Shown: one piece after another, positions 15,464-34,405 of the stretch
Layout: the number at the start of each line of letters is the position of its first letter
Position numbering within the stretch: the stretch's first letter is position 1
NCBI GenBank assembly: GCA_902812355.1
Contig: CADDZG010000002.1
Location: 1-34,491 of the forward strand
Direction of reading: 5' to 3'
Length of the DNA: 34,491 nucleotides
Source of the DNA: Actinomycetota bacterium
GTDB taxonomy: Bacteria > Actinomycetota > CADDZG01 > WHSQ01
Made by a program: the position numbers and the translations under genes
Notes under the pieces: model-generated
What the model saw: the letters and a program-made list of their open reading frames with translations, nothing else
Told to the model about the DNA's origin: nothing
Database searches by the model: none

Positions 15464-17806
15464 CTAGCCCTGCGTCGATACCGCCAGGTCGTGCGCGTCC
15501 TTCAGAAGCGTCTCGCAGCTCGCGAGCTCGGCACGCATCGTGCGGTGATCCGGGCGAGCCCCCCCGAACTCGAGCCGGTCCAGTGTCTCCTTGATGTCGG
15601 TCGCGAGCCGGTCGCGCCGATCGGCCAGTGAGCGCAAGCGGGCTTCGATCGTCGCGTAGCGCTCGTCGTTGCCGGGAGAGCCGCTGGAGAGGGCCGCGGT
15701 CGAGGCCTGCAGCGTGTCGCTGCCGAAGGTCCCGACGGACGCGTTGAGTTGCTTGTAGCAGGCGCCGAGGCTCTCACTCTGCTTGAGACGGCCGTTGCCC
15801 TCGAGGATCTGGGTGATCACCCGGCCGTCCATCACGTAGTCGTCGCGCAGCCCGGTGAGGTACAGCAGGGTGGGCCGGATGTCCGTCTCGTCCGCCCACG
15901 TGCCGCGGGTGCTGTAGGCGGGCACCGAACCCCCACCGGAGGGGTCCCGCACCGCCGGGCTGTCGGCCGGCAGAGGTCCGTCGATGCCGAGCCGGCGCAC
16001 GCGGGGTCCGACGAATCCGGTCCAGGTGATGTCGATGTCCGGACTGTAGTAGCCGTGGTTCCACGCATAGCGGGGATAGATCCCGACGCAGTCGGTGGCC
16101 GGCGAGTCCGATGCGCTGCAGTCGGGGTGCGACGCGTCGAAGTAGTAGTCGGGTTTGGGGAACACGGTGAAGGTCGGAGTCCGTTGGGGATCGGCGGTCT
16201 CGAGGTGCAGGATCCGCTGCTCGGTCGCTCCGGCCATGTAGTTGACGATGCGCTGCGTCCTGCCCTCGTAGGGGTCGTAGCCGGTGATCGCCGCGGTGTC
16301 CCGCTCGAGGCGACGCACCGCGGGGTCGTCTGCCGGCGGCGACACGGGTCCGCTGCCGTGGACGTAGATCGCCGCCGCCTGTGGCTCGATGTCGAAGGCG
16401 GTGGTGTCGCCGGTCTCCTTCTGCAACAGGGCCGGGAGGTTCGCCTGCACCTCGCCGATCTCGTCGTGGCCGTAGTTGCATACCGTCGTGACCCCATCGC
16501 AGCCGGCGGGCGTGGGTTCGATCGCACGGCCGACGTTGGCGCCGGCGAGGTGATCGTTCTCCTCCGCACCGATGATGAACAGCGTGTTGCGGGGGGTGAT
16601 GCCGTCCTTGCGCAGCCGGTCGAAGAACCTGGCGAACGCCTCATCGTAGTGGCGCATGTTGTCGACGTAGCAGGAGTCTCCCGGCCCGAGCGCGTAGTCG
16701 AAGCCGGTGGCGTCGGCCGTGGTGCAGTCGTGGCTCCAGTCCTTGCGGGCGTGTAGGTCGGAGATGTAACCGTAGGTGACCGGGATGCCTGCCTCCTGCA
16801 TCGACGCCAGCATTGCCAGGCTCTGGGTGGCGGTCGGGTTGAAGCCGGGGAAACCGACGTTGCCGCGGTAGTCGGCTATCTCGTTCCCGTCGAGGTCGAC
16901 GAGGTTGCCCTGCGCGTCGGCCACCTGATAGGGGGCCGGTGCATGGGCGTGAGCCACGAGGTAGGGCTGGATGTAGCGGTGCCCGAACAAAGCCCGGTAG
17001 TCGGCGTTACCCGGGTCGTTGGTAACAGGCGGTGGATCGTCGACCGCACCTTCGGCGTGCTCGCACGTGGTGTCGCCGATCCCGCAGTGGATCGCTTCAC
17101 CGATGAATGCGCTCGTGGAGTTCGCGTAACCGTCCAGCGGCGGCGTGGTACCGAACACGGTCTGGATGTCGGCGGTGTTCTCGAGCACCATGTTGGCGGT
17201 CGAGAAGTCTCCTACGGTGCAACCCGCTTTGGTGAAGGCGACCCACGGTTCCGGAGTGGTTTGATCCGGCGGCGTGTTGCCGGCCGGCACGGTCGGCGAG
17301 TAGACCATCGACGGCGAATCGTCGGTGCTCGACGGCTGTCCGTTGCTGATCACGGGTGAGGTCCAGTAGGTGAACGACACGTCGCTCTCCGTGGTGCCGT
17401 CGGGACGGTAGGTGCGATAGGAGTTGCTGATCGGCTGTCCGTGACGGTCGCCATACAGTCCCGAGTAGATCGCCAGGCTGTCCTCCGCGGTGTGCGCGAT
17501 CAAGGGCGTGTGCATGTTCGACATCAAGGTGCCGTAGTGCGTGAGAAAGTGATACAGGTGCGGCATCTGCTCGAGGTCCGAGGGAACGTTCGGGTTGTCG
17601 CGAAACAGATGCACGTTGTCGAAGGTGATGCTGATCACGTGCCGGATGCCGTTCGCGAGATGGCATCCCCGAGCTTGCCGCGCGTGTCCCGATGCGGCTC
17701 TAGGCGCGGACCCCGCCAGCGCGGCGGGCATCGAGGCCGCGATAATCGATGCAGCGACCGCAACAACGCCGAAACCCGTCAACCTGCGGACGAGCGACTT
17801 CCGCAT
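15464..17806 (-). CDS. Secreted alkaline-phosphatase-superfamily protein (phosphodiesterase-like)
   Basis: A 780-residue exported protein with a signal peptide (MRKSLVRR, a hydrophobic core, then MPAALAGSA, cleavage near residue 33). The core resembles the alkaline phosphatase/nucleotide pyrophosphatase superfamily: an early metal-site Asp in HVISITFDNVHLFRDN (Asp63), a probable nucleophile Thr106 in HTPLIAHTAEDSLAIYSGLY, a late IIGAEENDHLAG in place of the usual ADHGH-type motif, and WNHGYYSPDIDITWTGFVGP for the final His. It ends with WADETDIRPTLLYLTGL, as family members do, and a coiled-coil-like C-terminal helix pair. It probably hydrolyses an extracellular phosphoester or phosphodiester; the substrate is unknown. 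It lies 67 bp downstream of the AbrB-type gene on the same strand. Confidence 0.75.
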   Translation of the reverse strand: MRKSLVRRLTGFGVVAVAASIIAASMPAALAGSAPRAASGHARQARGCHLANGIRHVISITFDNVHLFRDNPNVPSDLEQMPHLYHFLTHYGTLMSNMHTPLIAHTAEDSLAIYSGLYGDRHGQPISNSYRTYRPDGTTESDVSFTYWTSPVISNGQPSSTDDSPSMVYSPTVPAGNTPPDQTTPEPWVAFTKAGCTVGDFSTANMVLENTADIQTVFGTTPPLDGYANSTSAFIGEAIHCGIGDTTCEHAEGAVDDPPPVTNDPGNADYRALFGHRYIQPYLVAHAHAPAPYQVADAQGNLVDLDGNEIADYRGNVGFPGFNPTATQSLAMLASMQEAGIPVTYGYISDLHARKDWSHDCTTADATGFDYALGPGDSCYVDNMRHYDEAFARFFDRLRKDGITPRNTLFIIGAEENDHLAGANVGRAIEPTPAGCDGVTTVCNYGHDEIGEVQANLPALLQKETGDTTAFDIEPQAAAIYVHGSGPVSPPADDPAVRRLERDTAAITGYDPYEGRTQRIVNYMAGATEQRILHLETADPQRTPTFTVFPKPDYYFDASHPDCSASDSPATDCVGIYPRYAWNHGYYSPDIDITWTGFVGPRVRRLGIDGPLPADSPAVRDPSGGGSVPAYSTRGTWADETDIRPTLLYLTGLRDDYVMDGRVITQILEGNGRLKQSESLGACYKQLNASVGTFGSDTLQASTAALSSGSPGNDERYATIEARLRSLADRRDRLATDIKETLDRLEFGGARPDHRTMRAELASCETLLKDAHDLAVSTQG

Positions 17807-20723: not shown

Positions 20724-21845
20724 CTATCGCCCGTAGCTCAGGCTGCCGTGGATCTGGCTGTGGCGATCGGGCAGCACCTCGATGATGGTGTGACCCGGGC
20801 GCAGGGCCATGGGCTTGCCCGACGGGGTGGTGAACCGGTACGGCTGCCTCAGGACACTGCGGTGCCACATCCCCCGGATCACCCTGCCGTTGCGGAAGAG
20901 GTAGGCGCGGCCCGAGCCGAAGGGGTGCAGCAGTATCGGAGCGCCGTGGCCGAGGACGTCGACGTCGGTACGCGACAGCCCGATCCTGCACCTCAGCACC
21001 AGCACGTTGGCGAAGCTCAGCTGCCGTCCGCCGGGCGAGGTGAACGGGGTCGTGCCCTCGTAGCGGTAGTAGCGACCGTGGCGGTAACGGTAGCCGACGA
21101 CGGTGGCTCCTTCGAAGTCGACGCGGATCCGGCGCGCCGCCGGAGCGCGGGGCGCCTTGCGGGCGAAGCGCAGGACGCCGGCGGGCGGAGGGGCGTGGAA
21201 GCGGCGTTCGCCGACGCGTCTTAGCGCCGCCGTATCGGCGTAGAGCGTGTGCTCGTAGGACAGTCCCGGCCTGGGTATGCGGCGCATCGCGCTGCCCGCC
21301 AGGATCTCGCCGGGCCGCCGCACCGTGCCGGTGATGCTCACGATCCCGCCCTTACGCAGCGCGGCGATGTCCTCGGCGTCGCCACCGGCGTCCCCCTCCA
21401 GGCGGGTGATGGGGCGGACGAGGTAAGGATCGATCGGCCTGGCACTGCGCACCGGCCCGGCCTTCGCGGCATCGGAGCATCCGTAGATCGCAACGAAACG
21501 CGTGAGCCCGCCCTCCACGGGTTCTTCGAAGACGAGGTCCGCCCGGCCCAGTCCCGAGTCCGGGTAGGCACCCGGGTAGTTCTCGATCTTGAGGGCCACC
21601 GCGGGCCTGTGCAGGTTACCGGGACGAGAGGGCCGGAGGCCGGTCAGCGGGCAGGTGTGGGGACTACGGCGGGCTCGAGACGCAGGGTTGGCGCTCGCCC
21701 GGGCGGGAGGGCCCGCGCCGCGTATCAGGTAGATGCTCGCCGCGACCGCCGCGGCGACGATCACGGCCACGCCTCCGAGCAGCAGCGGCGGGGGAGGCCG
21801 GAGCCGGCGCAAGACGCCCACGCCCTCGGTACCGGTGACGCGCAC
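20724..21845 (-). CDS. DUF3048 domain protein, membrane-anchored
   Basis: A 374-residue protein with one N-terminal membrane segment (PPLLLGGVAVIVAAAVAASI) and an extracytoplasmic region. The DUF3048 (YerB-like) domain follows: ALKIENYPGAYPDSGLGRAD, LVFEEPVEGGLTRFVAIYG and GPVRSARPIDPYLVRPI, with a C-terminal half holding RYYRYEGTTPFTSPGGRQLS and FANVLVLRC. The family is widespread in Gram-positive bacteria, is surface exposed or lipid anchored, and has no settled function. Start choice is uncertain: GTG 21845, 21869 or 21821 all lack a good ribosome-binding site, and the frame remains open to 22133 inside the divergent sigma gene. Only 54 bp separate the chosen start from that gene, so the promoters overlap. 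Confidence 0.82.
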   Translation of the reverse strand: MRVTGTEGVGVLRRLRPPPPLLLGGVAVIVAAAVAASIYLIRGAGPPARASANPASRARRSPHTCPLTGLRPSRPGNLHRPAVALKIENYPGAYPDSGLGRADLVFEEPVEGGLTRFVAIYGCSDAAKAGPVRSARPIDPYLVRPITRLEGDAGGDAEDIAALRKGGIVSITGTVRRPGEILAGSAMRRIPRPGLSYEHTLYADTAALRRVGERRFHAPPPAGVLRFARKAPRAPAARRIRVDFEGATVVGYRYRHGRYYRYEGTTPFTSPGGRQLSFANVLVLRCRIGLSRTDVDVLGHGAPILLHPFGSGRAYLFRNGRVIRGMWHRSVLRQPYRFTTPSGKPMALRPGHTIIEVLPDRHSQIHGSLSYGR

Positions 21846-21863
21846 CCCGTGGTTCCCGGGACG

Positions 21864-21890
21864 CGTCACGATCCGGCGGTTAGCCTCGTC
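21864..21890 (+). promoter_or_regulatory. ECF41-type autoregulatory promoter
   Basis: CGTCACG (21864-21870), exactly 16 nt, then CGTC (21887-21890) resembles the ECF41 promoter consensus as I recall it (TGTCACA-n16-CGTC), with 5 of 7 and 4 of 4 matches. It ends 9 nt before the ATG of the ECF41 sigma gene, so the transcript would be nearly leaderless. Confidence 0.6.
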
Positions 21891-21899
21891 TACCGGACG

Positions 21900-22850
21900 A
21901 TGACGCAGGAAGCCGCCGCCCGGACGAACCGGGCCTCCCGGGACGACACTCACACCGAGCTTCGGCCGCTGCTCTTCTCGATCGCCTACCGGATGCTCGG
22001 CAGCGCCAGCGACGCCGAGGACGTGGTCCAGGAGGCTTATCTGCGCTACCACCGCGCCGTGGAGCGCGGCGAGGTGGTCGAGTCCCCCCGGGCGTACCTC
22101 TCCGCCGTGGTCACCAGGGCGGCGATCGATCACCTGCGCTCCGCACGCGTGCGGCGAGAGAGCTACGTGGGACAGTGGCTGCCCGAGCCCCTGCTGGTCG
22201 ACGACGATCCTGCCGGGCGGTGGGCCGAAACCGCCGACTCGCTGTCCATGGCCTTCCTCGTGTTGCTGGAACGGCTGTCGCCGGTCGAGCGAGCAGTCTT
22301 CCTGCTACGCGAGGTGTTCGGATACGACCACGCGGCGATCGCCCCGATCGTGGGCAAGAGCGAGGTCAACGTGCGGCAGATCGCCAGCCGAGCGCGCCGC
22401 CACGTGGCCGCCGGCCGGCCTCGTTTCGAGGCCGACCGGCGCCGTCGCGATGAGCTGGCACAGCGCTTCTTCGCCGCGGTCGCCGAGGGGGACACCGACG
22501 AGCTGGTGTCCCTGCTGGCCGCCGATGCCGTGCTGTGGGGGGACGGCGGCGGCAAGGCTCCCGCCGCGGCCCGTCCGGTGGTCGGGCGCGACCGGGTGGC
22601 CCGCTTCCTCGCCGGACTGGGCCGCCAGGCGCGGCGCCAGGGTCTGCGGATCGCGCCCGTACCGGTCAACGGGCAGCCCGGGGTGATCGCGCACGACCCC
22701 GCAGGGGCGGTCGTCGCGGTGATGACGATCGACGTTGCCGACGGCGAGGTGCAGGCCGTGCGCTCGGTGGCCAACCCGGACAAGCTGCGGCACCTGGGGC
22801 CGGTGCGAGACGCAGCGGGTGCGCAGCGCGGGCCCGGCTCGAGCCGCTAG
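21900..22850 (+). CDS. sigJ: ECF41-group sigma factor (SigJ-type) with SnoaL-like C-terminal domain
   Basis: A 316-residue extracytoplasmic-function sigma factor. Region 2 has FSIAYRMLGSASDAEDVVQE and AVVTRAAIDHLRSARVRRES; the linker has the family motif WLPEPL; region 4 has LSPVERAVFLLREVFGYDHA. The extra C-terminal NTF2/SnoaL-like domain carries the two ECF41 hallmarks, DGGGK (from residue 215) and NPDKL (from residue 292). In this group the fused domain replaces an anti-sigma factor and tunes activity. ECF41 genes usually sit next to an oxidoreductase or carboxymuconolactone-decarboxylase target; none is adjacent here. The ATG at 21900 lacks a ribosome-binding site but directly follows an ECF41-type promoter. 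It is divergent from the DUF3048 gene, a possible co-regulated partner. Confidence 0.93.
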   Translation: MTQEAAARTNRASRDDTHTELRPLLFSIAYRMLGSASDAEDVVQEAYLRYHRAVERGEVVESPRAYLSAVVTRAAIDHLRSARVRRESYVGQWLPEPLLVDDDPAGRWAETADSLSMAFLVLLERLSPVERAVFLLREVFGYDHAAIAPIVGKSEVNVRQIASRARRHVAAGRPRFEADRRRRDELAQRFFAAVAEGDTDELVSLLAADAVLWGDGGGKAPAAARPVVGRDRVARFLAGLGRQARRQGLRIAPVPVNGQPGVIAHDPAGAVVAVMTIDVADGEVQAVRSVANPDKLRHLGPVRDAAGAQRGPGSSR

Positions 22851-22933
22851 GCACTGCCCGGATCTACGGGGGCCGGCGCGGGGCGCAAGGGGCAAGCGCC
22901 GCTCACTGCGGTGGGCATAGGGTGGAGGTGCCG

Positions 22934-24616
22934 ATGACCAGGCCGACCCAGCGTCAGCTTGCCGCCCTCGTCGAGTCGGGGATGATCCTCGCCTCGGACC
23001 TTCAGCTCGACTCGCTGCTCCAGCGGGTGGCCGACCTCGCGTGCGAGATCGTCGGGGCGCGTTACGCCGCGGTGGGCGTGCTGGACGACGACGGCAACCT
23101 CGCTCGCTTCGTCTACTCGGGGATCGATAGCGATGCCGCCGCCAGGATCGGGCATCTGCCCACGGGCCGCGGGGTGCTTGGGGTCGTGATAGAGGAGGGA
23201 GCGCCCCTCAGGCTCGCGGATATCTCGCAGCATCCCCGAGCGGTAGGTTTCCCTGCTCACCATCCGCAGATGCGTTCCTTCCTCGGCGTGCCGATCACCA
23301 TCAAGGGACGGACCTTCGGACGTCTCTACATGACCGAGAAGCAGGATGCCCCCGGCTTCTCCAAGGACGACGAACGCATGGCGTGCACCCTCGCCGCACA
23401 GGCGGGGCTGGCGATCGAGAACGCTCGCCTGATCGAGGAAGCTCGACGGCGGGGCGAGGAGCTGGCACGCCGGGTGGAGGAGCTCGGATCGGTGTACCAG
23501 ACCGGATCGTTGCTCACCTCTGCAGGCTCGCTGGACGAGACGCTGGCGGCCGTGGTCGAAGCGGCCCGGCGGATCACCGGCACCCGCTTCGCCACGCTCA
23601 TGCTGCTCGACCATCCCACCGGTGAGCTGGAGCTGCGCATCGCCTCCGGAAAGGGCGGTGAGAATGCCTCTCTGATCGGCAAGCGGTTCGCGCCCGGGAC
23701 ATCGAAGGCTCACGCGGTCCTCGCCCGGCATTGCGGCGAGGTCGTAGCGGACATCGCCGCGGACCCGGAGATACACCGTGATGTCGTCCGTCTGCTCGGC
23801 CGTCCTCGGAGCGGGATCTTCGTGCCGCTATTCGTGGGGGGTCGGGATATCGGCGCCCTGGCTTGCTACGACCCCGAGGACGGGCGCCCTCCCACCGAGA
23901 CGGATCTCCTTCCTCTGCAGGTGCTGGGAGCGATGGCGGCCGTGGCGGTCGAGAACGACCGGCTCAACCGGGCGCTGCGCGACATGACGCTGCTCGAAGA
24001 GAGGGAGCGGATCGCCAGAGACCTCCACGACGGGGTGATCCAGTCGATCTACGCGATCGGTCTGTCCCTGCAAGGGGCCCTCGTCAAACTCGGAGACCGG
24101 GAGCCGGAACTGAAGCGCGTGATCGAACGGGCGATCTCTGGTCTCGATCACGTCGTTCGCGACGTCCGCAACTACATCTTCTCGCTCGAGCCGATGGTGG
24201 CATCCGGACGCGATCTGAGGCAGGCGCTGCTCGAGCTGGCGCGCGAGCACGAGGCCGATACCCTGGCTCACGTCGTCATCTCGGTATCACCGGACGTATC
24301 CCGCCTCACATCGCATCGCTCGGTACATGTGCTGCACGTCGTTCGGGAGATCCTGTCCAACACCGCCCGCCACGGCCACGCCCAGATGGTGTCGATCGAC
24401 GTGTGCATCCAGGGTGACGAGCTCGTGCTGACGATCGAGGATGACGGGGTCGGTTTCGACCCCGACGCCGTGGAACCCGGCCACGGCCTCTACAACATCC
24501 GTCGCCGTGCGCTGGAGCTGAGAGGGACGCTCGACATCTCCTCCCGTCCACAGGGAGGTATGGCTCACGTCCTGCGTGTGCCGCTCACTTCACAGAGGGA
24601 GGTAGGGCGTGTCTGA
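22934..24616 (+). CDS. devS: DevS/DosS-like GAF-GAF sensor histidine kinase
   Basis: A 560-residue soluble kinase with no membrane segment. Residues 25-165 form a first GAF domain very like that of mycobacterial DevS/DosS: FVYSGIDSDAAARIGHLPTG, then ADISQHPRAVGFPAHHPQMR and SFLGVPITIKGRTFGRLYMT. His110 aligns with His149, the haem ligand of DevS, and His100 with His139. A second GAF spans about 195-340. The HisKA_3 box ERERIARDLHDGVIQSIYAI holds phosphoacceptor His365, and the ATPase domain includes EILSNTARHGHA and IEDDGVGFDP. Haem binding and sensing of O2, NO or redox state are inferred from the conserved histidine. A GGAGG lies 5 nt before the ATG. The stop overlaps the response-regulator start by 8 nt. 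narK follows, which points to control of nitrate respiration. Confidence 0.9.
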   Translation: MTRPTQRQLAALVESGMILASDLQLDSLLQRVADLACEIVGARYAAVGVLDDDGNLARFVYSGIDSDAAARIGHLPTGRGVLGVVIEEGAPLRLADISQHPRAVGFPAHHPQMRSFLGVPITIKGRTFGRLYMTEKQDAPGFSKDDERMACTLAAQAGLAIENARLIEEARRRGEELARRVEELGSVYQTGSLLTSAGSLDETLAAVVEAARRITGTRFATLMLLDHPTGELELRIASGKGGENASLIGKRFAPGTSKAHAVLARHCGEVVADIAADPEIHRDVVRLLGRPRSGIFVPLFVGGRDIGALACYDPEDGRPPTETDLLPLQVLGAMAAVAVENDRLNRALRDMTLLEERERIARDLHDGVIQSIYAIGLSLQGALVKLGDREPELKRVIERAISGLDHVVRDVRNYIFSLEPMVASGRDLRQALLELAREHEADTLAHVVISVSPDVSRLTSHRSVHVLHVVREILSNTARHGHAQMVSIDVCIQGDELVLTIEDDGVGFDPDAVEPGHGLYNIRRRALELRGTLDISSRPQGGMAHVLRVPLTSQREVGRV

Positions 24617-25286
24617 ACGCGCACGGGTGATGCTCGTCGACGACCACGAGGTCGTGCGCGAGGGTCTCAAGGCGCTGCTCGAAGCAGAAGGCGACATCGA
24701 GGTCGTGGCCGAGGCCTCCACGGGCCCCCAGGCGGTGTCGATGGCCAAGACCTACCGGCCGCAGGTCGTGGTCATGGACGTGCGCATGCCGGGTGGATCA
24801 GGCATCGAGGCGTGCCGGGATATCCGCGCCTTCGACGACGGCATCCAGGTCATCATGCTCACGTCCTACTCGGACGATGAGGCGCTGTTCGACTCAATCA
24901 TGGCGGGGGCCGCCGGCTTCGTGCTGAAGCAGATCAGGGGACGAGACTTGGTCGACGCGGTGCACAGGGTGGCTGCCGGCGAGTCGTTGCTCGATCCCAA
25001 GGTGACAAAACGCGTGCTCGAGCGGCTGCGCAAGGCGAGGGTCGACGACCGCGATCCCAAGCTGGCCCGGCTCTCTCCCCAGGAGGAACGGATCCTCGAC
25101 ATGATCGGCGAGGGCATGACCAATCGCCAGATCGCCGAACGCGTCCACCTTTCGGACAAGACGATCAAGAACTACGTGTCGGGGATCCTGCAGAAGCTCG
25201 AGGTGTCGCGCCGGGCCGAGGCTGCCGCCTACGTGGCTCGTGTGCGGGCGAGCGAGCAGGCGCGCCACGAGGATCCTGGAATCTGA
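24609..25286 (+). CDS. devR: DevR/NarL-family response regulator
   Basis: A 225-residue response regulator that aligns without gaps to the start of mycobacterial DevR with a 3-residue offset: Asp57 (VVVMDVRMP), Thr85 (MLTSYSDDEAL) and Lys107 (GFVLKQIRG) match DevR Asp54, Thr82 and Lys104. The LuxR helix-turn-helix has LSPQEERILDMIGEGMTNRQ and HLSDKTIKNYVSGILQKL; the K-T-x-K-N series that contacts DNA in DevR is retained. It should bind DNA as a phosphorylated dimer. The GTG start at 24609 overlaps the kinase gene by 8 nt, so the pair is translationally coupled. A textbook DevR box was not found nearby, so its operator may differ. narK and narGHJI are the obvious candidate targets. Confidence 0.92.
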   Translation: MSERARVMLVDDHEVVREGLKALLEAEGDIEVVAEASTGPQAVSMAKTYRPQVVVMDVRMPGGSGIEACRDIRAFDDGIQVIMLTSYSDDEALFDSIMAGAAGFVLKQIRGRDLVDAVHRVAAGESLLDPKVTKRVLERLRKARVDDRDPKLARLSPQEERILDMIGEGMTNRQIAERVHLSDKTIKNYVSGILQKLEVSRRAEAAAYVARVRASEQARHEDPGI

Positions 25287-25315: not shown

Positions 25316-25337
25316 TGACCAACGGGCCCACGGGAGC

Positions 25338-25370
25338 GGGCCGTCCGGCCCTAGGGACGGGGCGGCGTCC
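25338..25370. promoter_or_regulatory. Nested palindromes upstream of narK (candidate operator)
   Basis: Three overlapping inverted repeats occur here: GGGCCG-TC-CGGCCC (25338-25351), CCGTCC-n8-GGACGG (25341-25360) and GGACG-n6-CGTCC (25355-25370). They lie 72-104 bp before the narK start. The GGGAC/GTCC half-sites recall the DevR box, but the spacing is wider than consensus. Confidence 0.35.
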
Positions 25371-25395
25371 GGCCGACCCTGGACGGCAACGGGGT

Positions 25396-25422
25396 GCCGG
25401 TAGGTCGCCCCGCACGACCGGC
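25396..25422 (+). other. Inverted repeat in the narK leader, just before the ribosome-binding site
   Basis: GGTCG (25403-25407) pairs with CGACC (25415-25419), and GCC/GGC can extend the stem through a 4-nt bulge (25396-25398 with 25420-25422). It ends 6 nt before the AGGAGGG site. It could be an operator or an RNA structure affecting narK translation. Confidence 0.3.
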
Positions 25423-25441
25423 ACGATCAGGAGGGACGATC

Positions 25442-26680
25442 TTGACGACGAGGTGGCATGGCAGCCGGATGCCGCAGGGCGCCCGGCGGGCGCTGATCCT
25501 GGCGACGCTCGCGTTCATGGTCAACTTCTGGGCCTGGAACCTGCTCGCCCCCCTGGCTACCACGTACAAGGAGTTGCTGGGGCTCGGTCCGGTCGAGGTA
25601 TCGGTCCTGGTTGCGGTTCCGGTGATCGTGGGTTCCCTGGGGCGCATCCCGCTCGGCTCTCTCACGGATCGCTTCGGCGGACGGTTTGTCTTCGCGCTGC
25701 TCAGCTTCGCCCTCATCGTTCCGATCGCCTTTCTCGCAACCGCCGGCTCCTACCCCGCACTGCTGGCAGGCGGCTTCGTGCTCGGGCTCGGAGGTGCTTC
25801 GTTCGCCGTCGGGGTCCCCTTCGTCAGCGCGTGGTTCCCTCCGGAGCGCCGCGGGCTCGCTCTGGGCATCTACGGACTGGGCAACATCGGCACGTCGATA
25901 TCGGGTTTCGTGTCGCCGCGCGTCGTCGACGCGGCCGGCCGGGAGTGGGCTTTCCTCATCGTCGTCGCGCCCCTGGCGCTGATGGGCCTGCTATTCCTCA
26001 CGGTGGCGCGCGATGCACCGGGATGGAAACCGGCCACGGAGCCGTTTCTGCAACGTTGGGTCGCTGCGCTGGGCCTGCCGCTGGTGCGCCGGCTCGCGCT
26101 CCTGTACGCCATAACCTTCGGCGGCTTCGTCGCCTTCGGCGTCTATCTGCCGACGTACCTCGTGTCCGGTTACGATCTGTCGGTGGCCGACGCCGCGCTC
26201 CGGGCGGCGGGTTTCGTCATGCTGGCCACCCTCGCGCGCCCGCTCGGCGGGTGGCTCGCCGATCGGTACGATCCGATCAAGATCCTCGCCCCGGCCCTCG
26301 CCGGGGTCACGGTGGGGGCGACGGCGATCGCTCTGCAGCCGTCGCTGGCCGTGGTGACGGTTCCCTTCCTGGGCGTTGCGGTCTTCCTCGGGCTGGGCAA
26401 CGGGGCGGTCTTCGCGCTGCTCGGGCGGCGGATCCCGCCCACGCAGGTCGGCAGTGCCACGGGGTTGGTGGGCTGTGCCGGTGGTCTCGGCGGCTTCTTT
26501 CCTCCGATCGTGATGGGGCTCGTCTACCAGGCAACGGGCTCGTACTCGATCGGGTTGGGACTGCTGGCGATCGTTGCTCTGGCCGCCGCCGCTTTTACGT
26601 GGCGGGGGCGCGACGTGCCCCAGGAAGCCTCTTCCGAGCCGTCTGCTCCCACGGACCAGCCCGTCGGCCACGCGGTGTGA
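25442..26680 (+). CDS. narK: NarK-type nitrate/nitrite transporter (MFS, NNP family)
   Basis: A 412-residue inner-membrane protein with about 12 hydrophobic segments. Family signatures are visible: the motif-A loop GRIPLGSLTDRFGGRFVF, the first nitrate-signature-like helix ALGIYGLGNIGTSISGF, and the second, GLVGCAGGLGGFFPPIVMGL, preceded by GLGNGAVFALLGRRIP. NarK proteins import nitrate and/or exchange it for nitrite, feeding the cytoplasmic active site of NarG. The start is TTG 25442: AGGAGGG lies 6 nt upstream and no ATG or GTG fits as well; an ATG at 25394 would place that site inside the gene. It follows the DevSR-like pair by 155 bp and precedes narGHJI, with a hemerythrin-cupin gene between on the other strand. 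Confidence 0.92.
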   Translation: MTTRWHGSRMPQGARRALILATLAFMVNFWAWNLLAPLATTYKELLGLGPVEVSVLVAVPVIVGSLGRIPLGSLTDRFGGRFVFALLSFALIVPIAFLATAGSYPALLAGGFVLGLGGASFAVGVPFVSAWFPPERRGLALGIYGLGNIGTSISGFVSPRVVDAAGREWAFLIVVAPLALMGLLFLTVARDAPGWKPATEPFLQRWVAALGLPLVRRLALLYAITFGGFVAFGVYLPTYLVSGYDLSVADAALRAAGFVMLATLARPLGGWLADRYDPIKILAPALAGVTVGATAIALQPSLAVVTVPFLGVAVFLGLGNGAVFALLGRRIPPTQVGSATGLVGCAGGLGGFFPPIVMGLVYQATGSYSIGLGLLAIVALAAAAFTWRGRDVPQEASSEPSAPTDQPVGHAV

Positions 26681-26712: not shown

Positions 26713-27480
26713 TCACCGCCGCGGCGGGGGTCCGATCCGGACGCCGGGTGCCGCACCGTGGATCGTGAGGTAGCGGACCCCTCGAGGGCCGGCCGTGAGA
26801 CTGCGCTCGCTCCCCTTGGGGACGAGCAGCAGCACACCCTCATCGAGCTGCTCCTCGACGCCGTCGATCGCCACGGTCGCTTCGCCGCTGATGCCGATCA
26901 TGACGACGTCGCGCTCCTCGTTGATGTGGGGCGCGACGCTGTCGCCGGGCGGCCGGTCGATCAGGTTGACGTCCAGCTGAGCTGTGGCGACGGTCCACAC
27001 GGGGCCTGTACCCCTGCCGGAGCGCAGGCCGACGGCACGCTCGCCGAGGACCAAGCCCGCGCCGTGGTGGGGCCGGGGCAGGTGCTCGAGCCGGTCGGCA
27101 GCGATCTCCTCGAGCAGCGGGAACAGGGCGCGCTCTTCGAATCGGACGTGCTCCTGGAGCAGGCTCCCGGCGGTATCGGCTACCTCCGGGGTGGGGGCGT
27201 GCCGGAGCGCGGCGGCGAGGCGGTGCAAAGCGGCATGCTCGCCGAGGGCCCTGAGAAGGTACTCCCGCTGGGTGCGGTCGTCGGGATCCAGCAGGGGGAA
27301 CAGCTGCTCCTCCTCGTAACGCATGTGCGCCATGGTCTCGCGTGCGAAGAGGGCGAGGAAGGCTGTGGCGGCCCGATCGAGATCGCTTCCAGACGCGGCG
27401 GCGCGTAGGTTACGGGCCGCTGCCAGCGCATGATGGTGGTCGTGTGTCAGGGGGATCAGACTGTCGTGTCGGCGCGCCAT
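26713..27480 (-). CDS. Hemerythrin-like domain fused to a cupin domain
   Basis: A 255-residue soluble protein. Residues 1-125 form an HHE/hemerythrin-like four-helix bundle with candidate di-iron ligands: His13/15/16/17 (LTHDHHHAL), His52 with Glu56/57 (AHMRYEEEQLFP), His82/86 (GEHAALH) and His111 with Glu115/116 (EHVRFEERALFP). Residues 160-245 form a cupin barrel (PPGDSVAPHINEERDVVMIG, then GVLLLVPKGSERSL). The cupin keeps His185 and Glu189, has Asn at the second His position and lacks the late His, so its metal site may be lost. Hemerythrins bind O2, NO or iron; stress-protection and Fe-S repair relatives occur near denitrification genes. The ATG has AGGAG 4 nt upstream. It sits antisense between narK and narG and is divergent from narG. 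Confidence 0.88.
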   Translation of the reverse strand: MARRHDSLIPLTHDHHHALAAARNLRAAASGSDLDRAATAFLALFARETMAHMRYEEEQLFPLLDPDDRTQREYLLRALGEHAALHRLAAALRHAPTPEVADTAGSLLQEHVRFEERALFPLLEEIAADRLEHLPRPHHGAGLVLGERAVGLRSGRGTGPVWTVATAQLDVNLIDRPPGDSVAPHINEERDVVMIGISGEATVAIDGVEEQLDEGVLLLVPKGSERSLTAGPRGVRYLTIHGAAPGVRIGPPPRR

Positions 27481-27547
27481 CGGGCTCCTATCAGTGCTCG
27501 GCTGCGATGCTTCGCCAGCAGGTTACGACCACATCGGTGCGGGGAGG

Positions 27548-27601: not shown

Positions 27602-30600
27602 GTGGCGCTCGGACGCACGAGCGGCCTCTGTGCGAGGGATGCGGTTCCGGTGACTCCGGACCGTAGGGGCCCCGCGGCGACTCCCGGGCTGGACGGTGAA
27701 GTCACCGAAGCGCTGTTGCGCCTAGGGCGCCACCTGCGTCGCGGCGAGACGTCGGCCGATCTGCGCACCATTATCGAGGTCGGGGGCCGCGAGGCCGACG
27801 CCTTCTACAGGGACCGGTGGTCGCACGACAAGGTCGTGCGCTCCACGCACGGGGTGAACTGCACCGGCTCCTGCTCGTGGAAGGTGTACGTCAAGGACGA
27901 CATCATCACGTGGGAAGCCCAGCAGACGGACTATCCATCGGTGGGCCCCGATCGCCCGGAGTACGAGCCGAGGGGGTGTCCGCGCGGGGCTGCCTTTTCC
28001 TGGTACACGTATTCACCTACCCGGGTGCGCTATCCGTACGTGCGCGGGGTTTTGCTGCAGATGTTCCGCACGGCCAAGCGGGAGGCCGGAGGCGATCCCG
28101 TCGAAGCGTGGAGTCTGGTAGCCGACAACCCCAAACGCCGGGCCGCGTACGTGTCGGCGCGCGGCAAGGGCGGGTTCGTGAGGGCGTCGTGGCGTGAGGC
28201 GATCGAGATCGCCGCGGCGGCCCACGTGCACACGATCCGGCGGTGGGGGCCGGATCGGATCGCCGGCTTCTCCCCGATCCCGGCGATGTCGATGGTGAGT
28301 CACGCGGTGGGAGCGCGTTTCATATCGCTGATCGGCGGTGTCATGCTGTCGTTCTACGACTGGTTCGCCGATCTGCCAGTGGCCTCGCCGCAGGTGTTCG
28401 GCGATCAGACCGACGTCCCTGAAAGTGCGGACTGGTGGGACGCCGGCTACCTCATCATGTGGGGAGCGAACCTTCCCGTGACGCGCACGCCGGATGCGCA
28501 CTGGATGGCCGAGGCGCGCTACCGGGGGCAGAAGGTGATCGCGGTGTCTCCGGACTACGCCGACAACGTGAAGTTCGCGGACGAGTGGTTGCACGCGCAG
28601 CCGGGCACCGACGGCGCGCTGGCGATGGCCATGGGGCACGTGATCCTCAACGAGTTCTTCGTACAGCGCGAGACGCCCTACTTCACCGGATACGTGAAGC
28701 GGTACACCGATCTTCCGTTCCTGATCAAACTCGACGAGCGGGACGGCTACTTCGTCCCACGCAAGTTCCTGACCGCAGCGGATCTGGGTTCCGAAAGCGA
28801 GGGTGCCGCCTTCAAGACAGTTCTGCTCGACGCTGCCACGGACGAGCCTTTCGTTCCCAACGGCTCGCTCGGGTTCCGTTTCGGACAGCAGGGGGAGGGC
28901 CGGTGGAACCTCGATCTCGAGGGTCGCGATCCCTTGCTCACCCTGGCCGGAGGCGGGGCCGAGGCGGTGCCCGTCCGCCTCGTGCGCTTCGACACGCCGG
29001 ACGGCACCGGACGGGTTCTACGCCGAGGCGTGCCGGCGCGACAGGTCGCGGGGCATCTCGTCACAACAGTGTTCGATCTCCTCCTTGCGAACTACGGCGT
29101 ACGTCGTGAGGGTCTCCCGGGAGATTGGCCCTCGGGGTATGACGATCCCAACCATCCCTACACCCCCGCATGGCAGGAAGCGATCACGTCGGTCCCGGCG
29201 GCGGCCGCGGCTCGGATAGCGCGCGAGTTCGCCGATAACGCAGCCCGGACGCGCGGACGTTCCATGATCGTGATGGGGGCGGGCACCAATCACTGGTTCC
29301 ACTCCGATCTGATATATCGTTCGTTTCTCGCCTTGCTCACGCTGACCGGGTGTCAGGGTGTCAACGGGGGCGGTTGGGCGCATTACGTCGGTCAGGAGAA
29401 GGTCCGCCCGCTGACCGGGTGGACGCAGTTGGCGTTCGGGCTCGATTGGTCGCGCCCTCCGCGTCAGATGGTGAGCACGCCGTTCTTCTATCTCGCTACC
29501 GATCAGTGGCGTTACGACGCTCTGGATCCGGGGATCCTGGCCGCGCCCGGTGAGGCCGAACGGCTGGACGCTTCGAGCACGGCGGATCTGATCGCCCGTT
29601 CGGCTCGGATGGGGTGGATGCCCTCGTACCCCACCTTCGACCGCAATCCGATCGAGCTCGTCGAAGAGGCCGAGGCGCGGGACGAAGACCCGATCGCCTA
29701 CACGGTCGGCGCGCTGCGTGACGGCAAGCTGAGGTTCGCATGCGAGGACCCCGATGCCCCGGAAAATTGGCCGCGGGTGTTGACGGTATGGCGTTCGAAC
29801 CTCCTGGGCTCATCGGGCAAGGGCAACGAGTATTTCTTGCGGCATCTGATCGGAGGTGACTCCGCGATACGTGACGAGGAGGTGCCCGCCGATCGTCGGC
29901 CTCGCGAGGTGACTTGGCGCGAGCCGGCCCCGATAGGCAAGCTCGATCTGCTCTTGAGTCTGGACTTCAGGATGACGAGCACCACGCTGTTCTCCGACGT
30001 CATCCTACCGGCCGCGACCTGGTACGAAAAGCACGACCTCTCGAGCACCGATATGCACCCCTTCGTGCACGCGTTCAGTCCGGCGATCCCGCCCCCGTGG
30101 CAGACGCGTACCGACTTCGACTGGTTCCAGCTGCTGGCGCGTGCGTTCAGCGACATGGCCCGGGTTCACCTGGGCAAGCGCAGAGACCTGGTGGCCGGTG
30201 CCCTGATGCACGATAGCCCCGACGAGCTCTCGGTGCCGGGCGGCGCCGCCCGCGACTGGAAGAGAGGACAATGCGAACCGATCCCCGGGGTTACGATGCC
30301 GCGGCTCACCGTAGTGGAGCGCGACTACGAAACCGTTGCCGAGCGTATGACCGCCCTGGGCCCCCTACTCGACCGGCTGGGAGCGACGACGAAGGGTACG
30401 ACCTTCGATCTCACCGCCGCGGTAACGCAACTGAAGATGAAGAACGGCGTGATCCGAGGGGGTGCCGGCGACGGGCGACCCTCTTTGCTAGAAGACGTCC
30501 ATGCCTGCGAGGCAATCCTTGCTTTGTCGGGTACTACCAACGGATCGTTGGCGGTGCAGGGCTTCCGCGACCTCGAGCGCCGGACCGGCATGCGCCTCGC

Positions 30601-31354
30601 CGATCTCGCGGAGGAGCGGGAAGGGGACCACATCACCTTCGCTGACACACAGGCACGTCCTATGCCTGTGCTGACGTCTCCCGAATGGTCCGGTTCGGAG
30701 AGTGGGGGGCGCCGCTATTCCCCCTTCGTGATAAACGTCGAACGCCTGAAGCCGTGGCACACCCTCACCGGGCGCCAGCATCATTATCTCGATCACGATT
30801 GGATGGCTGCCTTCGGCGAGCAGATGCCGGTGTTCAGGCCGCCGCTCAACATGAGCCTGCTGTTCGGCGAGCCGCAGCTCGGCTCGGTGACGGAGCTCGG
30901 TGTCACCCTCCGTTACCTCACGCCTCACTCGAAGTGGTCGATCCACTCCGAGTACCAGGACAACCTTCTGATGCTGACCCTATCGCGTGGAGGACCCACG
31001 ATCTGGATCAGCCCCGCCGATGCGGCCAAGGCGGGGATAGCCGACAACGACTGGATAGAAGCCGTGAATCGCAACGGGGTGGTCGTGGCCCGGGCGATCG
31101 TATCGCACCGCATGCCCCAAGGTACCGCCTACATGTATCACGTGCAGGAGCGGGTGGTCGATGTCCCGGTGGCCGAGACCTCCAGGAAACGAGGTGGTAT
31201 CCACAACTCCCTGACCCGTCTGGCAATCAAGCCCACGCACCTGATAGGCGGCTACGCTCAATTGAGCTTTGCTTTCAACTACCTCGGCCCAACAGGCAAC
31301 CAGCGTGACGAAGTGACCATCATCAGACGGCGGTCCCAGGAGGTCACGTACTGA
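27602..31354 (+). CDS. narG: Respiratory nitrate reductase, alpha subunit
   Basis: A 1250-residue molybdenum enzyme subunit of normal length. The FS0 iron-sulfur site is visible as His83, Cys87 and Cys91 (HGVNCTGSC) with Cys126 (PRGCPRGA). Asp253 in MLSFYDWFADLPVASPQ corresponds to the Asp that ligates molybdenum in E. coli NarG. DQTDVPESADWWDAGYLIMW, TRTPDAHWMAEARYRG and VILPAATWYEKHDLSSTDMH are family hallmarks. It carries bis-MGD cofactor and reduces nitrate to nitrite in the cytoplasm, held at the membrane by NarI. No twin-arginine signal is present. The start is GTG 27602 or GTG 27650; neither has a strong ribosome-binding site. The stop overlaps the narH start (TGATG). Confidence 0.96.
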   Translation: MALGRTSGLCARDAVPVTPDRRGPAATPGLDGEVTEALLRLGRHLRRGETSADLRTIIEVGGREADAFYRDRWSHDKVVRSTHGVNCTGSCSWKVYVKDDIITWEAQQTDYPSVGPDRPEYEPRGCPRGAAFSWYTYSPTRVRYPYVRGVLLQMFRTAKREAGGDPVEAWSLVADNPKRRAAYVSARGKGGFVRASWREAIEIAAAAHVHTIRRWGPDRIAGFSPIPAMSMVSHAVGARFISLIGGVMLSFYDWFADLPVASPQVFGDQTDVPESADWWDAGYLIMWGANLPVTRTPDAHWMAEARYRGQKVIAVSPDYADNVKFADEWLHAQPGTDGALAMAMGHVILNEFFVQRETPYFTGYVKRYTDLPFLIKLDERDGYFVPRKFLTAADLGSESEGAAFKTVLLDAATDEPFVPNGSLGFRFGQQGEGRWNLDLEGRDPLLTLAGGGAEAVPVRLVRFDTPDGTGRVLRRGVPARQVAGHLVTTVFDLLLANYGVRREGLPGDWPSGYDDPNHPYTPAWQEAITSVPAAAAARIAREFADNAARTRGRSMIVMGAGTNHWFHSDLIYRSFLALLTLTGCQGVNGGGWAHYVGQEKVRPLTGWTQLAFGLDWSRPPRQMVSTPFFYLATDQWRYDALDPGILAAPGEAERLDASSTADLIARSARMGWMPSYPTFDRNPIELVEEAEARDEDPIAYTVGALRDGKLRFACEDPDAPENWPRVLTVWRSNLLGSSGKGNEYFLRHLIGGDSAIRDEEVPADRRPREVTWREPAPIGKLDLLLSLDFRMTSTTLFSDVILPAATWYEKHDLSSTDMHPFVHAFSPAIPPPWQTRTDFDWFQLLARAFSDMARVHLGKRRDLVAGALMHDSPDELSVPGGAARDWKRGQCEPIPGVTMPRLTVVERDYETVAERMTALGPLLDRLGATTKGTTFDLTAAVTQLKMKNGVIRGGAGDGRPSLLEDVHACEAILALSGTTNGSLAVQGFRDLERRTGMRLADLAEEREGDHITFADTQARPMPVLTSPEWSGSESGGRRYSPFVINVERLKPWHTLTGRQHHYLDHDWMAAFGEQMPVFRPPLNMSLLFGEPQLGSVTELGVTLRYLTPHSKWSIHSEYQDNLLMLTLSRGGPTIWISPADAAKAGIADNDWIEAVNRNGVVVARAIVSHRMPQGTAYMYHVQERVVDVPVAETSRKRGGIHNSLTRLAIKPTHLIGGYAQLSFAFNYLGPTGNQRDEVTIIRRRSQEVTY

Positions 31355-33009
31355 TGCAGGTGATGGCACAAGTGGCCATGGTGATGAACCTAGACAAGTG
31401 CATCGGGTGTCACACCTGCTCGGTGACCTGCAAGCAGGCATGGACGAACCGCACTGGGGTCGAGTACGTCTGGTTCAACAACGTCGAGACCCGCCCGGGC
31501 CAGGGATATCCCCGTCGCTACGAGGACCAGGAGCGGTGGCGGGGGGGCTGGGAGCTCGGCCGGCGAGGACGGCTCCGTCTCAAGGCCGGAGGCCGGGTGC
31601 GCAAGCTGCTCACGATTTTCTCAAATCCATTGATGCCGAACATCTCCGACTACTACGAGCCCTGGACCTACGACTACGAGAACCTGATGACCGCGGGGCC
31701 GCAGCAGACGACGCCGGTAGCGCGGCCGAGGTCCCTGCTTTCCGGCAAGGACATCCGGATCTCGTGGAGCTCGAACTGGGACGACAGCCTCGGCGGAGGG
31801 CCCGAACTCACGAGGCAGGATCCGGTGCTGGAGCGCGTGAGCGAGGAGGTCCGGCTCGAGTTCGAGAAGGCATTCATGTTCTACCTTCCGCGCATCTGCG
31901 AACACTGCCTCAACCCGAGCTGCGCGGCCTCCTGCCCGTCGGGGGCGATCTACAAGCGCACCGAAGATGGCATCGTTCTCGTGGACCAGGATCGCTGTCG
32001 CGGCTGGCGGATGTGCGTGACCGGTTGTCCCTACAAGAAGGTTTACTTCAACCACCGGACCGGTAAGGCGGAGAAGTGCATGTTCTGCTACCCGCGCGTA
32101 GAGGTGGGGATGCCGACCGTCTGTGCCGAGACATGCGTTGGACGCCTGCGCTACATCGGCGTCGTGCTGTACGACCCGGAAAGGGTGCTCGGGGCGGCCT
32201 CGACGCCCGATCCGAAGGATCTGTATCGGGCGCAGCGGGAGGTGTTCCTCGATCCCTATGATCCCGAGGTACAGGGCGCGGCCGAGCGCGCAGGGATCCC
32301 GCCCGACTGGATAGAAGCGGCGCAGGCATCGCCGGTGTGGTCGTTGATCCAGCGCTTCGAGGTTGCGCTACCGTTGCATCCCGAGTACCGCACCCTGCCG
32401 ATGGTGTGGTACGTCCCTCCGCTGTCGCCGGTCGTGGACGTGCTCAGGGACACCGGACACGACGCCGAGGATGCGGGCAACCTCTTCGGGGCGATCGACG
32501 CGCTGCGTATACCGATCGGTTATCTCGCGGAGCTGTTCACGGCAGGGGACCCCGGCCCGGTGCGCGGTGCGTTGCAGCGCCTGGCGGCGATGCGCTCGTA
32601 CATGCGAGCCGTCAACCTCGGCGATCCACCCGACCCGTCGATCCCTGCGGCGGTGGGGATGGACGAGCGGGACGTGCAGGACATGTACCGACTCCTGGCG
32701 TTGGCGAAGTACGACGAACGCTACGTGATCCCGGCTGCGCACGCCGAGGCCGGCGAGCGGCTTGACGAGCTCGCCTGCACGCTCGACTACGAAGGCGGAC
32801 CCGGTATGGGAGGGTGGGGTCCCTTCGGAGAGGGCTCCGGAGGTGTGACGCCGGTGGCGGTTGAGACCTTCCACGCGCTCAAGGATCGGCAGCGCACGGG
32901 GGCCTTCGTCGATCCTGCCGACGGACGGCGGCGGGTCAACCTGCTCAACTGGGACGGCCGGGGTGAGGCGGGGGAACTCTTGCCACAGGACGGGGATGCC
33001 GAAGGATGA
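31354..33009 (+). CDS. narH: Respiratory nitrate reductase, beta subunit
   Basis: A 551-residue electron-transfer subunit with four iron-sulfur clusters. The first cysteine group is Cys16/19/22/26 (CIGCHTCSVTCK). Others are CEHCLNPSCAASCPSG, CRGWRMCVTGCPYKK and KCMFCYPRVEVGMPTVCAET. The Trp in CRGWRMC replaces a cysteine, which gives the [3Fe-4S] cluster as in E. coli NarH. The C-terminal PVWSLIQRFEVALPLHPEYR and LPMVWYVPPLSPV region contacts the other subunits. It passes electrons from NarI haems to NarG. The ATG shares one base with the narG stop, and the narH stop overlaps narJ (ATGA), so the subunits are made from one mRNA. About 40 extra polar residues at the C-terminus look like a lineage-specific tail. 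Confidence 0.96.
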   Translation: MQVMAQVAMVMNLDKCIGCHTCSVTCKQAWTNRTGVEYVWFNNVETRPGQGYPRRYEDQERWRGGWELGRRGRLRLKAGGRVRKLLTIFSNPLMPNISDYYEPWTYDYENLMTAGPQQTTPVARPRSLLSGKDIRISWSSNWDDSLGGGPELTRQDPVLERVSEEVRLEFEKAFMFYLPRICEHCLNPSCAASCPSGAIYKRTEDGIVLVDQDRCRGWRMCVTGCPYKKVYFNHRTGKAEKCMFCYPRVEVGMPTVCAETCVGRLRYIGVVLYDPERVLGAASTPDPKDLYRAQREVFLDPYDPEVQGAAERAGIPPDWIEAAQASPVWSLIQRFEVALPLHPEYRTLPMVWYVPPLSPVVDVLRDTGHDAEDAGNLFGAIDALRIPIGYLAELFTAGDPGPVRGALQRLAAMRSYMRAVNLGDPPDPSIPAAVGMDERDVQDMYRLLALAKYDERYVIPAAHAEAGERLDELACTLDYEGGPGMGGWGPFGEGSGGVTPVAVETFHALKDRQRTGAFVDPADGRRRVNLLNWDGRGEAGELLPQDGDAEG

Positions 33010-33668
33010 GGAACCCGATGAAACGACGGGTCCGGGTGTCTCCCACCGAACAGCAGTTGGTGACCGGCTTCCAGGTTGCATCCCTGTTGCTCGGTTATCC
33101 GGATGGAGAGCTGTTGCGACGGTTACCGCTGCTGCGCCGTGGAGCCGGCACCCTGCCCGAGGTTGCAGCGCGACCGTTGTTGCGCTTCATCGATCACCTG
33201 GAAGAGAGCGACCTCGAGCGCGTCACCGTCGAACATGTCGAGACCTTCGACCTCGAGCGGCACTGTTGCCCCTACCTCACGTACTACTCCCATGGGGACA
33301 CGCGCAGGCGAGGCATGGCGATCCTGGCGTTCGTCCATGCTTACCGTTCAGCAGGTTGGGAGGTGGGCGGTGATGAGCTGGCGGATCACCTCGCCGTTGT
33401 CCTGGAGTTCTGTGCACGGGGAGACCTCCGCACCGGTCTACGGCTCCTCACCAGGCACCGCGCCGCGATAGAGCTGCTGCGTGCCGGGCTCGAGGAGAGG
33501 CGTTCTCCCTACGTCGACGTTCTGGACGGCGTGCGCGCGTTGCTGCCCGAGCCGGCACCGGCCGACCTCGAAGCGGCCCTAGAACTTGCCCGCACGGGCC
33601 CTCCCGCCGAGGAGGTTGGACTAGAGCCCTCCGCTCCTCCCGACTACATGGGGGGCGCACGGCGGTGA
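33006..33668 (+). CDS. narJ: Nitrate reductase molybdenum-cofactor assembly chaperone
   Basis: A 220-residue cytoplasmic helical protein of the NarJ/TorD chaperone family. The clearest motif is VETFDLERHCCPYLTYYSHG followed by DTRRRGMAILAFVHAYRSAG; the opening QVASLLLGYPDGELLRRLP also fits. NarJ binds apo-NarG, lets the molybdenum cofactor and FS0 cluster be inserted, and is not part of the final enzyme. The ATG overlaps the narH stop (ATGA); an in-frame ATG at 33018 is a possible alternative. The stop overlaps the narI start (GTGA). The last 40 residues are acidic and proline-rich. Confidence 0.94.
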   Translation: MRNPMKRRVRVSPTEQQLVTGFQVASLLLGYPDGELLRRLPLLRRGAGTLPEVAARPLLRFIDHLEESDLERVTVEHVETFDLERHCCPYLTYYSHGDTRRRGMAILAFVHAYRSAGWEVGGDELADHLAVVLEFCARGDLRTGLRLLTRHRAAIELLRAGLEERRSPYVDVLDGVRALLPEPAPADLEAALELARTGPPAEEVGLEPSAPPDYMGGARR

Positions 33669-34405
33669 AGACCTTCCTGTGGGTGATCGTCCCGTACGTG
33701 TCCATCGTGATCTTCGTCGGCGGCCACGTCTGGCGCTACCGCTACGACAAATTCGGGTGGACGACGCGGTCGTCGCAGCTCTACGAGAGCCGCTTGCTGA
33801 GGCTCGGCAGCCCGCTGTTCCATTACGGGATCCTGTTCGCGTTGGTGGGCCACGTCATCGGGATACTCGTGCCCCAGAGGGCCACCGAGGCCGCCGGCAT
33901 CGGCGATCCGATCTACCACGTGCTGGCGATCTCGCTCGGGGGGGTCTCGGGATTCATGACGCTGTCGGGTCTGGCGATCCTCGTCTATCGCAGACGCACG
34001 GTCGGGCCCGTCTTTTCCGCCACCACCGTCAACGACAAAGTGATGTACGTCTTGCTCGCGGGGGCCATAGTCCTGGGGTTGTTGGCGACCGTCTTCGGCA
34101 ACGCCCTGGCCGGTGGTTACGACTACCGGGAGAGCGTGTCCCCCTGGTTCCGTTCGATCTTCTACCTTCACCCGCGGGCCGACCTCATGGCGCATGCCCC
34201 TCTCGTGTTCCAGGCGCACGCGATCAGCGCCTGGGTGCTGTACGCCGCGTGGCCGTTCACCCGGCTGGTGCACCTGTTCAGCGCGCCTATCGGGTACCTC
34301 TACCGCCCTTACATCATCTACCGCAGCCGCCCCCAGGGCCTGGGCGCTCGCCCGATCCCCCGGGGGTGGGAGCGGGCCGATATCCGGCCTCGCCGGCAAG
34401 GGTGA
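33665..34405 (+). CDS. narI: Respiratory nitrate reductase, gamma subunit (cytochrome b)
   Basis: A 246-residue membrane protein with five hydrophobic segments. The four haem-ligating histidines are His53, His63 (LFHYGILFALVGHVIG), His185 and His203 (FQAHAISAWVLYAAWPFTRL then VHLFSAP); the spacings of 10 and 18 equal those of E. coli His56/66 and His187/205. Other hallmarks are VGGHVWRYRYDKFGWTTRSS and PWFRSIFYLHP. It oxidises quinol on the outer face and sends electrons to NarH, conserving energy as a proton-motive force. The GTG start overlaps the narJ stop by 4 nt. It is the last gene of the operon in this window; only 86 bp follow. Confidence 0.96.
   Translation: MKTFLWVIVPYVSIVIFVGGHVWRYRYDKFGWTTRSSQLYESRLLRLGSPLFHYGILFALVGHVIGILVPQRATEAAGIGDPIYHVLAISLGGVSGFMTLSGLAILVYRRRTVGPVFSATTVNDKVMYVLLAGAIVLGLLATVFGNALAGGYDYRESVSPWFRSIFYLHPRADLMAHAPLVFQAHAISAWVLYAAWPFTRLVHLFSAPIGYLYRPYIIYRSRPQGLGARPIPRGWERADIRPRRQG

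Follow-up and report, generated by a model that had tools for sequence, protein, structure and literature searches.

What does a hemerythrin joined to a cupin do between the genes for a nitrate transporter and a nitrate reductase? The question is raised by a gene in the window, the whole analysed stretch of 34,491 nucleotides, which is contig 2 of an actinobacterial MAG (2.43 Mb in 307 contigs, 93% complete).

Architecture of the locus

The right third of the window carries a DevS/DosS-type histidine kinase (22847-24616, + strand), a DevR/DosR-type response regulator (24609-25286, +), narK (25394-26680, +), the fusion gene on the opposite strand (26713-27480, −) and narGHJI. The kinase, whose start is uncertain, contains two GAF domains, HisKA_3 and HATPase according to Pfam, and matches PDB entry 2vzw (E 1.6e-47) as well as DevS chains. 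The regulator matches DevR (PDB 3c3w, E 2.1e-54). The NarK-like protein is a nitrate/nitrite MFS transporter (MFS_1) with a TIGR00886 score of 222.5 bits, below the cut-off of 311.7. The reductase genes, assigned by Pfam, are narG for the alpha subunit (27602-31354, +; the true start may be downstream), narH (31354-33009, +), narJ (33006-33668, +) and narI (33665-34405, +). The fusion gene converges with narK, which ends at 26680, and diverges from narG at 27602. The antisense placement between the two given in the preliminary description is therefore correct, while the term "embedded" is not, as the gene lies inside no other gene.

The open frame has 255 codons in the ORF list and begins with ATG. 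A likely ribosome-binding site, AGGAG, can be read in the sequence 4 nt 5' of the start codon (27485-27489, −). The Hemerythrin HHE domain spans residues 11-123 (27112-27450, −), as assigned by Pfam, ligand alignment and AlphaFold2. The cupin region covers residues 137-255 (26716-27072, −), with a Cupin_2 match at 175-228, and is supported by Pfam, alignment, AlphaFold2 and Foldseek. The open frame, the ribosome-binding site and the family matches for both domains rule out a chance ORF or a frameshift artefact. The neighbouring genes described below run cupin-HHE, opposite to the HHE-cupin of the fusion, so that a lost stop codon between such genes would not yield it. The HHE-cupin fusion is a real gene, although its first description needs several corrections.

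We judged a misbinned contig unlikely. The nearest relatives of DevR are found in its own class (70-78%), the best matches of a gene far upstream in the window come from f2, within that class, and a tree places the HHE domain among the HHEs of the class (support 89/93, on a branch that is not starred). The fusion is the one hemerythrin gene found in its genome. The 93% complete MAG contains no RIC match and no NirK above the cut-off; the COX1 family gives three matches of 525-540 bits.

Hemerythrin half

The HHE domain scores 43 bits with PF01814 against a cut-off of 25.3 (residues 11-123). AlphaFold2 predicts a bundle of four helices for residues 1-140, with a pLDDT of ~97. The best structural match of this part by VIA-align is NMB1532 (PDB 2p0n; Z 14.4, 136 residues, rmsd 2.8), a protein of unknown function that has no cupin itself. 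The hemerythrin DcrH-Hr has a Z of 10.4, much like those of unrelated helical bundles (10-11), and a Foldseek search with the full-length fusion model gave nothing significant.

The di-iron ligands of YtfE are H84, H129, E133, H160, H204 and E208, with E125 and E159 in the second shell (PMC9268430). In a weak alignment with the fusion (E 0.08), in which the HxxxE and EH motifs coincide, H129, E133, H160, E125 and E159 correspond to H52, E56, H82, E48 and E81, while H84, H204 and E208 were paired with H15 or H16, H111 and E115 by motif only. A 20-row HHE alignment has R4, H15, H16, L19, E56, H82, R113, E115 and E116 as invariant positions and H52 and H111 as nearly invariant ones. The alignments thus bear out the full ligand set first read from the sequence: H15/H16, H52, E56, H82, H111 and E115, with E48 and E81 as the putative second shell.

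The domain resembles the RIC proteins YtfE and ScdA (TIGR03652) in its predicted four-helix bundle, six iron ligands and equivalents of E125 and E159. It differs from them in its C-terminal cupin, in having no ScdA_N domain (PF04405, no match at E 1) and in its family score, which at 19.5 bits is far below the TIGR03652 cut-off of 204.7. Judged by alignment and family score, the HHE half has all YtfE-type di-iron ligands, yet is not a RIC. We predict that the fusion is a di-iron protein.

Cupin half

The Cupin_2 match (PF07883, residues 175-228) reaches 24.4 bits, below the cut-off of 27.2; an unfused relative (locus L044) scores just above it, at 28.4 bits. The AlphaFold2 model of residues 137-255 has a mean pLDDT of 80, and the matches listed by Foldseek for it are cupin-type folds, with a best E of 1.7e-07. 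These predictions support a cupin double-stranded beta-helix fold.

Metal-binding cupins carry the canonical site motif HxH...E...H. The corresponding positions of the fusion are H185, N187, D191 and R226, which do not make up the canonical metal site. The preliminary description had the metal ligands partly lost, with the His, Asn and Glu kept and the late His missing. H185 and N187 are indeed present and the canonical late His is R226, but the place of the Glu is taken by D191, and E189 is an extra acid. Nor is the loss specific to the fusion gene. H185, D191, R226 and H241 are kept in 22 of 22 alignment rows, which means that the subfamily as a whole is without the usual metal site, and that an invariant His, H241, stands at a different late position. 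The remaining invariant residues are G159, W162, V192, G199, G215 and L238. Unlike the subfamily, the window cupin is without the two near-invariant Arg residues (RR) after H241. The replacement of the canonical metal His by an invariant Arg raises the idea that the cupin binds an anion or another ligand, and a role as a ligand sensor is possible.

Linkage to nitrate respiration

Among 396 genomes of the phylum, a homologue was found in 50, narG in 46 and both in 24, against 5.8 expected (Fisher 1e-12), with the best few candidates scored per genome, so that misses are possible, and with genomes of one family not being independent. In 14 of these 24 genomes narG and a homologue are no more than 25 kb apart, against 0.6 expected under random placement. 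The 14 consist of the window and 13 others: nine in family f13, three in f31 and one in f21. In the other ten the two genes are on different contigs (seven) or more than 100 kb apart (three). In G174 the HHE gene starts with a GTG and has a 4-bp overlap with the narI stop, and G261 has the gene order narGHJI-narK-HHE. Of 55 narG places we scanned 54: the window and 50 loci, together with L110, L114 and L115 (the short contig of G132 was left out). In 16 of them the retrieved stretch contains an HHE-type or RIC-type match, a count without a background rate. The HHE relatives in f2 and f3 have none of the queried neighbours.

The closest relatives of the window narG are those of G044 (74%), G069 and G199 (73%), G160 (72%), and G324, G101 and G237 (71%). 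In G044, G199 and G101 an HHE gene lies between narK and narG, all on the same strand, and in G069, G160, G324 and G237 no HHE match lies beside narG. A comparable arrangement is on record for S. coelicolor, where a table lists the hemerythrin-domain gene SCO0212 with narK SCO0213, near narGHJI2, in the predicted OsdR regulon (PMC5069765). The window resembles all four in having an HHE protein beside narK and narG. The HHEs of G044, G199 and G101, however, begin with CEYCGC, look like another subfamily, point in the same direction as narK and narG and lack a cupin, while the window gene is antisense and fused. By this comparison the window appears to keep an HHE in the narK-narG slot, but one of a different subfamily, reversed and fused. 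In the other class genomes no narG was found at 1e-200, which hints at acquisition of the nar genes.

Myxococcota were considered as a second example of a nar/nor setting and rejected, as this held for one locus only (L017) and 24 further HHE loci gave no rule: RIC is present in three and a weak NorB match in two. In L017 (1-9943), from a Polyangiaceae MAG, narJ, norC-, norB- and norQ-type genes and a VWA protein are found together with a Crp-type regulator that overlaps the HHE gene. The methyltransferase after this HHE gene shares 61% identity with one that neighbours HHE genes in f13.

The observations support an association with nitrate respiration. The link to nitrate and NO genes drawn in the preliminary description thus holds in its nitrate part, by co-occurrence, proximity, the overlap in G174 and the narK-HHE-narG slot. 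Its context of Fe-S repair is found in one family, f13; the fusion is not a RIC, and its genome has neither a RIC match nor a NirK above the cut-off. A lack of association with nitrate or NO genes, named there as a reason to give up the idea, is not what we found for the HHE and the cupin-HHE pair; such neighbours are nevertheless missing around the majority of cupin-only copies and of Myxococcota HHEs. The locus suggests that HHE proteins of the di-iron type often accompany actinobacterial nar clusters and have been little studied.

Fused in one lineage, adjacent in another

Full-length matches to the fusion were found in none of the 23 other class genomes, leaving the window alone among 24, and the window is also the only such match in the 396 phylum genomes. 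None of 235 Myxococcota genomes has a full-length match, and 25 have HHE-only matches. A peptide-pattern scan of the contigs of species genomes, a method that catches close relatives only, gave five HHE-only loci and no second fusion. Plasmids contain no fusion and three cupin-only records, from Streptomyces and Streptantibioticus, and searches of phage and viral contigs returned no relatives. The rarity of the fusion holds for these sampled sets and not for all bacteria. The cupin subfamily was not found in the other class genomes, where a single weak match (G014, 31%) looks like another kind.

Adjacent cupin and HHE genes, on one strand and with the cupin first, were detected in eight sampled genomes, all of family f13 (G072, G083, G103, G123, G132, G162, G201 and G211). 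In six of the eight the pair is within 25 kb of narG; both contigs of G132, at ~5.4 kb, are too short to show linkage, and G211 has no narG at the threshold. The search for further fusions and their neighbours proposed at the outset thus yielded no second fusion in the samples, but nar neighbours that recur for HHEs and for cupin-HHE pairs. A RIC is near the HHE or the pair in six of ten f13 HHE loci, and RIC or SufT is close by in several. In cupin-only genomes, 22 of 24 have no cupin near narG; only G191 and G199 have one there.

Domains that are fused in one lineage and adjacent in another usually form a functional pair, and by this rule the cupin and the hemerythrin should act together. 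A hemerythrin-cupin fusion or pair is not described in the open-licence PMC literature that we searched. While an HHE gene beside narK is already on record for S. coelicolor, the coupling to a cupin appears to be new.

A second cupin occurs in family f13 as well, close to narG and with a gene for a DUF1858-hemerythrin after it (L044; Pfam). In G103 these two genes overlap (L044, 4517-5609) and lie between narG and a cluster of RIC, SufT and the cupin-HHE pair. Related cupins are near narG in G072, G123, G162, G083 and G191.

DevSR setting and regulation

A palindrome script and a pattern search identified GGGCCGNNCGGCCCTA before narK (25338), within the DevR/OsdR-type box CGGGCCGTCCGGCCCT (25337-25352, +). 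The palindrome agrees with the OsdR consensus AGGGCCGATCGGCCCT, which was tested by EMSA in S. coelicolor (PMC5069765). The window box matches 13 of 16 positions of this S. coelicolor consensus, and 0.4% of equal-length stretches of the window score as well. A DevR/OsdR-type box upstream of narK is likewise present in G044 and G199. Elsewhere GGGCCGNNCGGCCCTA occurs twice in the DevSR-MCO-HHE locus of G015, once in that of G012 and once in a G014 HHE contig. Exact matches were found in 8 of 180 loci, all from the genomes of the window, G015, G012 and G014, with L001/L169, L014/L061/L170 and L002/L073 duplicating the same places.

The GAF domain of the DevS-type kinase keeps an HHP...LY motif, which we take to have heme roles. 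DevR and an HHE are at most 5 kb apart in three of the seven class genomes that have both (the window, G012 and G015), and G015 and G012 contain DevSR-MCO-HHE clusters. The boxes suggest a DevR regulon in the family of the window. Shared control of the fusion and narG, which had been proposed from their divergent starts, is not borne out. The best DevR-type box between the two starts reaches 10/16, which is ordinary for the window, leaving the one upstream of narK as the sole strong box, and the same stretch contains no sigma-70-like site, no GGGAC-N4-GTCCC match and no FNR-type match. The fusion itself might still be controlled by DevR.

The boxes lie at 2906-2921 and 4914-4929 in L061, 12587-12602 in L064, 1397-1412 in L073 and 25337-25352 in the window. 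In all, four genomes from the family of the window carry them, near DevSR, the multicopper oxidase and narK and on an HHE contig. The G015 locus (L061, 3064-12260) has the order DevS, DevR, multicopper oxidase (N-terminal cupredoxin), HHE, membrane protein, NasC-like molybdoenzyme, FeS, Rieske and HPP, and L064 reads DevSR-MCO-CBS-HHE. The palindrome TTGAT-N4-ATCAA, with at most two mismatches, occurs six times in the window, a number that none of 100 shuffles reached (mean 1.7), and is absent before narK, narG and the fusion.

Proposed function

We propose, with our confidence evenly divided, that the fusion is a cytosolic di-iron protein that protects a hypoxic nitrate respirer from NO, its cupin modulating the HHE. 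Its place would be that of hemerythrin partner in a nitrate-respiration locus associated with DevSR. NarG makes nitrite, from which NO would form, and the fusion would lower the resulting nitrosative damage. The HHE bundle would bind two irons through four His and two Glu and react with NO by scavenging, by peroxidase-like chemistry or by donating iron for Fe-S repair. The cupin, a companion domain that is elsewhere encoded directly before the HHE gene, probably acts on the HHE as a modulator, either through a small anion or ligand that it binds or through dimerisation.

Several described proteins offer parallels. A mycobacterial hemerythrin-like protein has NO peroxidase activity (PMC8913304), and NorA of denitrifying Ralstonia is reported to protect from NO (PMC9045102). 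The mycobacterial proteins Rv2633c and Mka HLP are likened to the fusion by description only, as actinobacterial hemerythrin-like di-iron proteins with known NO chemistry, and no cupin is reported for them. In Desulfovibrio desulfuricans an NO-induced cupin is found beside hcp (PMC5701242). Again by description, its likeness to the cupin half is that of a small cupin induced together with an iron protein that handles NO (PMC5701242), but it is a separate gene and its partner is Hcp.

A wider proposal, which we put forward tentatively and consider rather doubtful, is that a cupin and a stand-alone HHE together make up a di-iron module in two parts that has so far gone unrecognised in the nitrate respiration of actinobacteria. 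The cupin, of a non-metal type and bearing an invariant Arg, would sense an anion such as nitrite or nitrate and switch how the HHE reacts with NO. In the window the module would take its one-chain form, a class-native HHE joined to a cupin subfamily absent from the other sampled class genomes, in the narK-narG slot where related nar clusters hold another HHE subfamily. Should the cupin prove to gate the HHE, the single chain would offer a compact model of such gating.

The adjoining DevS-type heme sensor and DevR raise the alternative that HHE binds O2 and the cupin relays its state, tuning nitrate respiration as oxygen becomes low instead of clearing NO. Hemerythrin domains are O2 or redox sensors in other bacteria (PMC9388753), and the S. 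coelicolor HHE is listed as an oxygen-transporting protein of the predicted OsdR regulon (PMC5069765). We regard this as unlikely: Pfam finds no DNA-binding or signalling output domain in the fusion, its four-His/two-Glu ligands are of the YtfE type as opposed to the five-His hemerythrin type (PMC9388753), and the f13 loci have RIC neighbours. A catalase- or peroxidase-like or iron-handling protein that acts against oxidative stress, with an incidental position at nar, would fit the catalase activity of Rv2633c-type proteins (PMC8913304) and the many HHE relatives without nar neighbours, but is quite unlikely given a narG proximity that in three other families is far above random expectation. 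YtfE has also been reported as an NO-generating nitrite reductase (PMC9052748). The fusion has the same ligand set, and the nitrite made by NarG would be its substrate; a di-iron nitrite reductase or NO source is nevertheless very unlikely here, as the family score does not identify the fusion as a RIC and the ScdA_N domain is missing. A dormancy factor like PA2171, which binds the ribosome and FtsZ (PMC13041383), is highly improbable despite the DevR-type setting and a match of the unfused HHE of G103 (L044) to NF053874 (E 7e-8), since the fusion scores 13.9 bits with this PA2171 persister family against a cut-off of 190 and its neighbours are respiratory genes.

Protection from NO would bear on how bacteria survive the NO that they produce themselves, and the locus links this question to the DevSR gas sensing known from dormancy.

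Other genes of the window

Two further genes of the window were recorded. At 15464-17806 (−) a predicted protein of 780 residues has a secreted-looking N-terminus and no Pfam match at 1e-4. The gene at 21249-22850 (+), whose start is uncertain, encodes an ECF-type sigma factor with a C-terminal SnoaL_2 domain in the second half of the ORF.
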